NCBI GenBank assembly: GCA_947501275.1
Contig: CANMVD010000001.1
Location: 744,001 to 808,000, forward strand
Length of the DNA: 64,000 nt
Source: an uncultured Tateyamaria sp.
GTDB taxonomy: Bacteria; Pseudomonadota; Alphaproteobacteria; Rhodobacterales; Rhodobacteraceae
Direction of reading: 5' to 3'
The position numbers and the translations under genes were made by a program. The notes beneath the pieces were generated by a model, which saw only the letters and a program-made list of their open reading frames with translations, did not search any database and was not told the DNA's origin. Positions 12,214 to 15,022 of this stretch are shown piece after piece. Within the stretch, counting starts at the first letter, position 1, and every line of letters starts with the position of its first letter.

Positions 12214-12615
12214 TTACACCTGCGTCGCCAACAGCCGCTCTTCGCGAGGAAGCAGAGTACGCAACGCTTTCAGGCAACGATAATGATCATCTTGAATCAA
12301 GGAGTGAGATGCCAGGTCCAGATTTTTTCGACTGTCCGGATCTATGAATACTTGGCTGAGCTCTTCGATGTTGCGCAGCAAGCCCTGACGGGCTTCCGCA
12401 GCGGATCGATCGCCCGACAGAACCAGTTGAACGGCATAGCAAACCCTACGGACTGGCGTTTTCGCATCTTCGGGGTGGATGGCATCCCTTAAACGCAGAA
12501 TGTTCGCATCCGGGGTGACTATTGAAAGCCGGCTACGGCGATCGCCGTTTTCAATGACCGCGCCGTTGATCAAAACGCGCTCCTTCGGGCTCAGCTTGAG
12601 AACAAGGCCACTCAT
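12214..12615 (-). CDS. flbT: Flagellin mRNA regulator FlbT
   Basis: MSGLVLKLSPKERVLINGAVIENGDRRSRLSI; start corrected to the Met overlapping the flaF stop. Confidence 0.94.
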   Translation of the reverse strand: MSGLVLKLSPKERVLINGAVIENGDRRSRLSIVTPDANILRLRDAIHPEDAKTPVRRVCYAVQLVLSGDRSAAEARQGLLRNIEELSQVFIDPDSRKNLDLASHSLIQDDHYRCLKALRTLLPREERLLATQV

Positions 12616-12989
12616 GCCGATCTTCCTTCTGATTTCAGGCCGCGCAAGACAGCCATGTTGATTTCCAGCAGCGGCATGACAGACGCATTTTCGCGAAAGA
12701 TCTTTCTTGTGTGCTGACGGGTAAAATCCGCCAAGTAAATGACCCGGGCTTTGAGATCCGCGGGAAGTGGATTGTCTTTGTCCGCAACGTCTACAACCAA
12801 CGCGGTCCACAATCGCTGGTTCAAATCCAGAGCGGAAGCGTAGGCAGGAAAGTCTGATTTGCCCTTTACTGCAGCGTCTCTCAGACTCTGTGTGACGCGT
12901 GCAACGATACCGTATTCGGTACGACGATCGTCGCGGGTCGTGGCGGCATTATCGGCGTATCCGCGCAAAGCTTCTGACGTTGCGTTCAC
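12612..12989 (-). CDS. flaF: Flagellar biosynthesis regulator FlaF
   Basis: FlaF-like (LDLNQRLWTALVVDVADKDNPLPADLKARVIYLADFTRQHTRKI) next to flbT and flagellin. Confidence 0.93.
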   Translation of the reverse strand: MNATSEALRGYADNAATTRDDRRTEYGIVARVTQSLRDAAVKGKSDFPAYASALDLNQRLWTALVVDVADKDNPLPADLKARVIYLADFTRQHTRKIFRENASVMPLLEINMAVLRGLKSEGRSA

Positions 12990-13062: not shown

Positions 13063-14451
13063 TTACCGGAACAGCGACAAAATCGACTGTGGCGCCTGAT
13101 TGGCAATCGACAAGGACTGTACACCAAGCTGCTGCTGTGTTTGCAGAGCCTGCAGACGGGCAGACACTTCTTCCATGTCTGCGTCAACAAGCGAACCAAT
13201 GCCTGCCTTCAAAGAATCAGACAGCTTGCTAACAAACTCAGATTGAGTTTCGATCCGGTTTTGAACCGAGCCAAAGGCAGCCGACGCGTCAATCGACTGT
13301 TGGATCAGGCCATCAATAGCCGTCAGAGCACCAGTTGCGTTTTGGGTCACGTCAAGCGATGCCAGAGCGCCAAGGCCACCTGAGGATGCACTTGTACCTG
13401 CGGTGCCGCCTTGTGTGATCTGTGCGCTGAAGTTAATCGCAGCACCGGAATTGTTGGTCAGCTGGATTTCATTCAGGTTTACGTCGCCTGCAGTATTTGT
13501 GGTCGAGTTCACCGAAGCCGAGTAGTCGCCGTCATTGGTAGCTGCACCAAAGAAAGCATTGATTTGGCTGGCCAACTCATTGGCAACATCAGTTGTACCA
13601 TCAGACTCTGAGGCAACGTAGCTGAATGTACGCGATCCAGTGGTTGTACCACCACCAACAACATTGATTTCAACGTCGCTCAGATAAATCTGATACGTCG
13701 CACCGGCTTGCACTTCGTTGACAGAGAAAGATGCGCCTGTGCCGTCAGCAAGAACTGTCGGCGCGTTGGTCGCCTCATCTGTCAAATCGTCATTTTCGAA
13801 GTAAGCGTTTGTGCCAGTACCAGTCGTATCCGCACCGGCAGCCACTGTCGTGTTGTTCAACACAGTGAATGCCGCATTCGCACCGGCCTGGTCCGCAGCA
13901 CCGTCAGCTGTACCAAGTACTGCGGTAGCTGTTGCATCCGTGACCGAAAGATTCTGACGTACGACAGCGATCGAACTGGAAGACACGGTACCGTCTGTCG
14001 AGCGGTCGAGCGACGACAGAACATTCATGTCAACAGTGCTCGATCCATCAATCAGGTTCTGACCGTTGAACTGAGCGGCGCCCACAACAGAGCCAATTTG
14101 CGCTTCAAGAGCATCGATGTCCGCTTGGATGGCGTCACGGTCGACGTTTTCTTCTTGAGCGGCGACAATCCGACCTTTCATTTCCGTCAAAAGGTCTGTG
14201 ATCGTTTCGGAAGCATTTGCGGCCACCGCCACTGTGCTTTCACCCAAGCTCAGTCCTTCGGACACCGCCTTGAAGCCGGACACATCTGATTCCATCACTT
14301 TGGAAATTGCCCAGACTGCAGAGTTGTCTTTCGCGCTGGCAACCGATTTACCGGTCGAGATTTCGCTTTGCGTCATCGCAAGGTTTTTGTTGATGGATTT
14401 CAGTGTTTGCAGCGCGACCATTGCGCTGTTGTTGGTAAGAATGCTCGACAT
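13063..14451 (-). CDS. Flagellin
   Basis: MSSILTNNSAMVALQTLKSINKNLAMTQSEISTGKSVASAKDNSAVWAISKVMESDVSGF and C-terminal LQTQQQLGVQSLSIANQAPQSILSLFR. Confidence 0.97.
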   Translation of the reverse strand: MSSILTNNSAMVALQTLKSINKNLAMTQSEISTGKSVASAKDNSAVWAISKVMESDVSGFKAVSEGLSLGESTVAVAANASETITDLLTEMKGRIVAAQEENVDRDAIQADIDALEAQIGSVVGAAQFNGQNLIDGSSTVDMNVLSSLDRSTDGTVSSSSIAVVRQNLSVTDATATAVLGTADGAADQAGANAAFTVLNNTTVAAGADTTGTGTNAYFENDDLTDEATNAPTVLADGTGASFSVNEVQAGATYQIYLSDVEINVVGGGTTTGSRTFSYVASESDGTTDVANELASQINAFFGAATNDGDYSASVNSTTNTAGDVNLNEIQLTNNSGAAINFSAQITQGGTAGTSASSGGLGALASLDVTQNATGALTAIDGLIQQSIDASAAFGSVQNRIETQSEFVSKLSDSLKAGIGSLVDADMEEVSARLQALQTQQQLGVQSLSIANQAPQSILSLFR

Positions 14452-14491
14452 TTGCATTTCCTTTTGTCAGGCGCTTTTGCACCTAGGTTTA

Positions 14492-14596
14492 CGTCCCGCC
14501 CCCCATTGGGACGGCTGAATGCCGTTCTGACAGTCGCACCGCCAAATCGATGGCGCTGCGCCACTCTTTCCGAGTGCTCGGGGACAGTGACCCCGA
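14492..14596 (-). promoter_or_regulatory. Structured flagellin 5' leader with several perfect hairpins
   Basis: Inverted repeats at 14492-14513, 14511-14525, 14551-14563, 14562-14576 and 14578-14596. Confidence 0.55.
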
Positions 14597-14656
14597 ATTA
14601 CCTAACGGAGTCATAAGGGTTCCGCGCAGAGTCCATCAGATTTGAATCAACACTGC

Positions 14657-15022
14657 TTACGCACGCTTTTCGACCGAACGTGTAACACCCATATCGACGG
14701 ACGATTTGCGCCCGGATTCATCATAAGTTTCCAGCGACTGCTTAACGCGCCGGATTGCAGCCAGCCGTCGCGCGACCGATCTGATCCCATCCAGCGCAGT
14801 ATCCAGCAACAGCTGATTGCGCCGCACTTTTTCATCCAGCTCACGTAAATCCAATGCTTCTTGAGTGTCGAATTTGTTCAGCGCATCGACAAGACGCCCT
14901 TTTTCGTCATGCAAACGTGCGACACCATCAACGTCGCCAGTAAGCAAGGCCTCCCTTTCGCGCTCCAGAAGATCATCAAGACTGTCGATGGTGGTTTGCA
15001 GTGTTTCAGTTGTCATCTTCAC
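14657..15022 (-). CDS. FlgN-like flagellar chaperone candidate
   Basis: 121 aa helical protein (LDDLLEREREALLTGDVDGVARLHDEKGRLVDALN), overlaps the flgJ-like gene. Confidence 0.6.
   Translation of the reverse strand: MKMTTETLQTTIDSLDDLLEREREALLTGDVDGVARLHDEKGRLVDALNKFDTQEALDLRELDEKVRRNQLLLDTALDGIRSVARRLAAIRRVKQSLETYDESGRKSSVDMGVTRSVEKRA

Follow-up and report, generated by a model that had tools for sequence, protein, structure and literature searches.

The flagellin locus

The window analysed here, a stretch of 64,000 nucleotides of an uncultured marine Tateyamaria sp. (positions 744001-808000 of contig 1), contains the only flagellin gene that a full flagellin query found in the 4.6-Mb genome. 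The gene lies on the minus strand at 13063-14451 (ATG at 14449-14451, stop codon at 13063-13065) and carries the Pfam domains PF00669 and PF00700. In a swimming cell, flagellin is one of the costliest proteins. Downstream, on the same strand, are flaF (12612-12989, PF07309) and flbT (12214-12615, PF07378), whose identities given in the initial annotation are confirmed by their Pfam domains. Upstream are flgN and a gene of the FlgJ rod-binding type.

The initial annotation described a flagellin leader packed with five perfect inverted repeats. All five are present on the minus strand, approximately where it placed them, upstream of what the Pfam domains identify as a genuine flagellin gene. Folding of this region exceeds that of dinucleotide shuffles, with z of -3.5 for 14452-14600 and -3.8 for 14452-14656; for the predicted transcript, taken from 14577 through codon 14, z is -2.8. 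Together with the covariation in relatives described below, this bears out the general claim of a structured leader. A search of 14380-14680 against Rfam 15, at gathering and relaxed thresholds, left the leader unmatched up to E = 10. Elsewhere in the window, the serC leader (RF00517, 49953-50004, 71.6 bits) is the sole Rfam match at gathering level.

Conservation in the Rhodobacteraceae

Eighteen flagellin leaders of the same genus align from GCAC/GCAT to the ATG, with hairpin sequences that differ between them. When 298 genomes sampled from the Rhodobacteraceae were searched with a covariance model made from these 18 leaders only (R1), 69 of them gave one full-length match each. A refined model of 89 leaders (R2) found the leader in 197 of the 298, mostly as a single match per genome. 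It is the shape of the leader, rather than its letters, that is kept in about 200 genera. In the 89-leader alignment, 82 leaders directly abut a flagellin start codon and seven are without flagellin. A class-wide search outside the family returned weak matches in six genomes only, and in the four of them that were examined (all but G349 and G380) no flagellin start followed the match.

Across the 89 leaders, 92.9% of pair cells are formed and 320 double changes were counted, against 94 +/- 12 in shuffles; the covariation score is 0.449, against 0.05-0.10 for slid partners. Fitting the alignment to the model favours the structure. The slid control, the folding of single sequences and a second set of loci, gathered independently of the model, nevertheless argue for a real effect. 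The mean single-sequence z is -1.90 for the 82 leaders, whereas their promoters give -0.09 and coding sequence gives -0.91. The second set, loci without flagellin, was collected by a DNA pattern and not by the structure model. Covariation in related genomes, on which the initial annotation had made its claim depend, is thus strong: compensatory base changes exceed chance in independent lineages. By this comparison the leader is almost certainly a conserved structured RNA, and its reading as an apparently uncurated family of structured RNAs located at the 5' end of flagellin messages is strongly supported.

In two genomes with several matches (G106 and G238; L114, L115, L116), the matches that were read, three in G106 and two in G238, each precede a separate flagellin paralogue. 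Some of these paralogues have no CtrA box and still carry the leader; the element therefore travels with the RNA and not with the promoter.

Predicted promoter and transcription start

Upstream regions of the family, justified to the right, gave a profile of TTAG-N7-TTAG at -39 to -25 with an A in position -11 and a T in position -7, counted from the first base of the conserved RNA. In the window, a CtrA-box-like site, TTAT-N7-TTAG, occupies the minus strand at 14602-14616 (-39 to -25), and a -10-like element, CACTGT, lies at 14584-14589 on the same strand (-12 to -7). TTA-N8-TTA is in place before 85 of 94 flagellin leaders, and the A at -11 and the T at -7 are found in 70 of the 94 promoters. 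CtrA-activated promoters have the consensus TTAA-N7-TTAA near -35 (PMC6180460), and the predicted promoter has a box of this type. In the relative Phaeobacter inhibens, fliC was 64-fold down in CtrA phosphorelay mutants and was the most CtrA-dependent flagellar gene (PMC12363192). A sigma-70 consensus scan found no promoter, and the CtrA-type promoter emerged by comparison only.

From this anatomy we infer that the flagellin promoter is under CtrA control and starts transcription at 14577 (minus strand), the first base of the conserved RNA. The position is read from the spacing of the CtrA box and the -10-like element and from the 5' edge of conservation. It is upstream of 14492, in keeping with the initial annotation, for which a start downstream of 14492 would have spoken against its claim.

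One of the five repeats falls outside the predicted transcript. TCGGGG..CCCCGA (14578-14596), proposed as the outermost RNA hairpin, is not conserved in the 18 same-genus leaders and spans promoter positions -20 to -1. The palindrome is essentially particular to this strain, and in L018 an unrelated six-pair stem stands at the same place. Because the CtrA box and the -10-like element put the start at 14577, this hairpin is probably promoter DNA that is not transcribed.

Further upstream, positional conservation in 89 aligned upstream regions delineates the element TTGATTCAAATC (14639-14650, minus strand), whose family consensus is TTNNNTCAAAT at -73 to -63. This element, about 70 bp from the inferred start, contains a GANTC (CcrM-type) site in this genome and genus. 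It is a possible site for a second activator.

Architecture of the leader

As delimited by sequence conservation, the conserved RNA is the segment of about 126 nt that begins near 14577 and ends at the start codon (14451), with the predicted elements P1, P2, PL, P3 and P4 and a free Shine-Dalgarno sequence, all on the minus strand. P1, the 5'-terminal hairpin CACTC-GGAAA-GAGTG (14562-14576), was already recognized as an inverted repeat; 99.7% of its cells are paired, and changes on both sides occur in three of its four modelled pairs. P2, a long hairpin CGCAGCGCCA / TGGCGGTGCG (14535-14560), has 82-94% of cells paired and both-side changes in six of seven modelled pairs. The TGGCG..CGCCA repeat of the initial annotation is part of it, conserved and covarying as such, but its extent was underestimated since the stem in fact counts nine pairs.

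Two conserved elements had been overlooked. The first is PL, a small hairpin GUC-AGAAC-GGC (14521-14531) that contains the invariant GUCAGAA and has a near-invariant AGAAN loop; 94.5% of its cells are paired with little variation, and the motif GUC-AGAAN-GRC is present in 73 of the 89 leaders. The second is P4, AGGTGC-AAAA-GCGCCT (14469-14484), located just 5' of the ribosome-binding site, with 95-98% of cells paired and both-side changes in four of five pairs. Within the genus it reads GGCGC-AAA-GCGCC, and GACGC-AAA-GCGUC in L014.

Between these two elements, P3 forms the hairpin CCGUCCC-AAUGG-GGGGCGG (14496-14514, pairing 14508-14514 with 14496-14502), with 89.8% of cells paired and both-side changes in all seven pairs. 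Its arms are mostly CCGUCCC/GGGGCGG in the genus, CUGUCCC/GGGACAG in L005 and CCGCCCC/GGGGCGG in L004. The initial annotation had paired this region differently, as CGTCCC..GGGACG (14492-14513). The 5' arm of that repeat does belong to a conserved helix, P3, but in another register; the register proposed is paired in only 58% of cells, and 56 of 500 shuffles reach as high a value. The neighbouring repeat, ACGGC..GCCGT (14511-14525), fared no better, with 50% of cells paired in the 89 relatives and an equally high value in 144 of 500 shuffles.

These two repeats had been proposed as mutually exclusive hairpins that toggle flagellin translation. In this genome both repeats are free of mismatches and overlap at 14511-14513, but neither is conserved across the 89 relatives. 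In addition, ACGGC..GCCGT is absent in the same-genus leaders L008, L011, L012 and L013, in which P3 is maintained by changes on both arms. A switch of this kind is thus very improbable.

The Shine-Dalgarno sequence AAGGA (14459-14463) was read directly; it is kept in 18 of 18 same-genus leaders and lies outside every conserved helix. It was computed to be 50% unpaired, against 37% for the remaining leader. An extended helix masking it (GUGCAU/AUGCAC, from RNAalifold) was considered and found not to be general, as it is broken in L001, L008 and L013. An upstream peptide within the leader was rejected on a reading of the sequences, because single-base insertions vary the loops of P2 and P3.

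The idea of a switch stays alive in another form, since PL may clash with a long-range helix. The GUCA of PL (14528-14531) could pair instead with UGAC (14466-14469, minus strand), and this putative helix P0 would exclude PL. UGAC or UGAU occurs at most 14 nt before the Shine-Dalgarno sequence in 37 of the 89 leaders, about tenfold more than the 4% expected. P0 also forms when the predicted transcript is folded to minimum energy, and it was picked by RNAalifold on the 18 leaders. On the other hand, 83% of its cells are paired and 17% are broken on an alignment fitted to P0 itself, with almost no covariation, and PL accounts equally well for the conservation of GUCA. A competition between PL and P0 is hence rather unlikely. 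It is in the same measure unlikely that P0 closes P3 and P4 into a junction that abuts the ribosome-binding site.

A simpler function would be that of a passive stabilizer, in which a stack of hairpins guards an abundant message against 5'-dependent decay and leaves the ribosome-binding site accessible, without any ligand, protein or switch. P1 begins at the inferred +1, P1 to P4 are all local hairpins, and the Shine-Dalgarno sequence is free as described above. However, the near-invariant loop sequences GUCAGAAN and GCAAAGC (the tip of P4) exceed the needs of protection, as does the order and spacing of hairpins fixed in about 200 genera. Passive stabilization alone can be retained as a possible but doubtful explanation.

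A model for the control of flagellin synthesis

The preferred model is that of a cis-acting control element for flagellin synthesis. The flagellin mRNA would start at about 14577 under CtrA with a folded leader of 126 nt. Protection of the mRNA is probably the task of the stacked helices and of P1 at its very 5' end, whereas a trans-acting regulator probably recognizes the AGAAN loop together with the GCAAAGC tip of P4. By analogy, this regulator would most plausibly be FlbT, alone or with flagellin or FlaF, and it would set decay or translation according to the export status of flagellin, as described in Caulobacter. Taken as a whole, with its cis element, recognition loops and FlbT-type regulator, this mechanism has in our view an even chance of being right.

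FlbT is the first candidate because of its action on flagellin leaders in other alphaproteobacteria. It is described as acting on the 5' UTRs of flagellin mRNAs in both Caulobacter and Brucella, with an opposite sign in the two (PMC4347634). In Caulobacter, FlbT and FljJ couple export to translation, in that flagellin translation is repressed until FljJ is exported (PMC7591256). The genome studied here likewise encodes FlbT, and the leader forms the 5' UTR of its flagellin gene. Among the 298 genomes, 172 have both FlbT and the leader, 25 the leader only, 43 FlbT only and 58 neither (Fisher p 1e-15). This co-occurrence is in line with FlbT control but says little on it because both belong to one gene cluster and can be lost with it. 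In P. inhibens, an flbT transposon mutant is still motile (PMC12363192). The retention of the leader in genomes without detected flagellin also counts against the mechanism. Control of the leader by FlbT is plausible on the analogy with Caulobacter.

Several known systems are comparable. In Caulobacter crescentus, the fljK flagellin 5' UTR and FlbT (Anderson and Gober 2000, as cited in PMC4347634) offer an alphaproteobacterial flagellin leader with linked flaF and flbT for which post-transcriptional control was proposed. In contrast, the matches examined outside the Rhodobacteraceae contain no flagellin leader, and the leader described here has a CtrA-type promoter whose +1 is in register with P1, FlbT binding being putative. 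FlbT was found in Caulobacter, used as control genome; with only weak leader matches outside the family, the present architecture is therefore not a general requirement of FlbT.

The flg-Rhizobiales RNA motif (RF01736; PMC2864571) is also a candidate structured RNA named for flagellar genes and found in one alphaproteobacterial order, the Rhizobiales. It differs by its host group, and its covariance model has no match to the leader (Rfam 15, E up to 10). Finally, the Campylobacter flaA leader, bound by CsrA-FliW (PMC4894983), is a stem-looped flagellin leader through which a protein responds to the status of flagellin. It comes from another phylum and has CsrA sites of the GGA type, and homology is not claimed.

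The leader in loci without flagellin

In the seven aligned loci without flagellin, motB codons 1-31 come after the leader, in reverse orientation. A scan of the genome contigs for this junction pattern found 66 stretches, 56 of which have an R2 leader that ends at the junction. These 56 loci, among L159-L224, are a lower bound; the arrangement was also seen in L035, L042, L072, L074, L083, L085, L101, L123, L124, L126, L127, L129 and L130. It occurs in Roseovarius, Loktanella, Yoonia, Celeribacter, Shimia, Pseudooceanicola, Maritimibacter, Sulfitobacter, Roseibacterium and others. In 56 of 56 loci, the AT of the former fliC start is fused to an alanine codon of motB, and the alanine wobble alone varies. 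In the genome to which the window belongs, most of the flagellar cluster is bounded on one side by motB (730 kb) and on the other by the leader (758 kb), and the two point towards each other, so that the junction is what remains after loss of the approximately 27 kb between them.

Flagellin and FlhA seem to be missing from many of these genomes. FlhA was not found in ten genomes with this arrangement (G074, G249, G260, G263, G069, G060, G173, G179, G176 and G276), and a flagellin search of the first eight found none in any of them. The RNA can thus outlast flagellin. Long open frames for FlgJ, FlgN, FliK and FlgD persist in nearly all loci without flagellin, with a median dN/dS of 0.1-0.4 for FlgD, FlgN and FlgJ and of 0.08 for the motB fragment.

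Tomasch et al. concluded that fla1 was lost several times independently. On an FlgJ+FlgN tree, a quick tree with many weak forks, the flagellin-less state needs 23 changes, at least 6 of which are forced by well-supported branches; a leader sequence tree served for nearest-neighbour counts only. The shared base-exact junction may go back to one deletion allele that spread through recombination or gene transfer agents, to a precise excision that happened repeatedly, or to selection acting on the ends that are left.

This persistence led to the hypothesis that the RNA acts at least partly in trans, as a leader-derived small RNA, and hence outlives flagellin. The 56 loci match the flagellin leaders in structure and covariation (92.9% paired, score 0.502), the FlhA and flagellin searches above are in line with it, and E. 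coli has flagellar small RNAs that derive from UTRs (PMC10578931). Nevertheless, the CtrA box is eroding in loci without flagellin (30 of 55, against 85 of 94), and the leader itself is decaying in Loktanella and Yoonia (19-30 bits). It may also be a simple remnant, as the adjacent fla genes are likewise intact. An action in trans is accordingly judged improbable. More broadly, it can be proposed tentatively that the leader is a new family of RNA whose role extends further than the translation of flagellin, the Rhodobacteraceae that lost fla1 having kept the RNA, the promoter, 31 motB codons (antisense), flgN, flgJ, fliK and flgD.

Other observations concern the same region. In L062, L079 and L125 (genomes G161, G160 and G290, all FlbT-negative), the leader precedes a truncated flagellin of about the first 41-44 residues; full-length MotB is still present about 2 kb away, a different type of cluster decay. 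The motB gene has its own conserved upstream region (L226 8066-8314 in the window's genome), with a GTTAA..GTAAC box and then GGGTGA..GGTGG before the ATG, which is also kept ahead of the motB fragment in loci without flagellin. In G232 (62% complete; contig 93, L233), the flagellin-less leader and an FlhA gene are on different contigs, and this genome may be a strain mixture or have a second system.

Implications

How alphaproteobacteria delay flagellin synthesis until they are ready for export has been an open question since the discovery that FlbT acts on the flagellin leader. A strongly covarying leader in about 200 genera supplies the exact helices and loops to mutate and can serve as bait in the search for its regulator. 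If functional, its survival in relatives without flagellum would be unexpected. Were a role beyond flagellin translation true, it would mean either a retained module of regulatory RNA and microprotein or a recurrent and precise loss of the flagellar cluster in this family.
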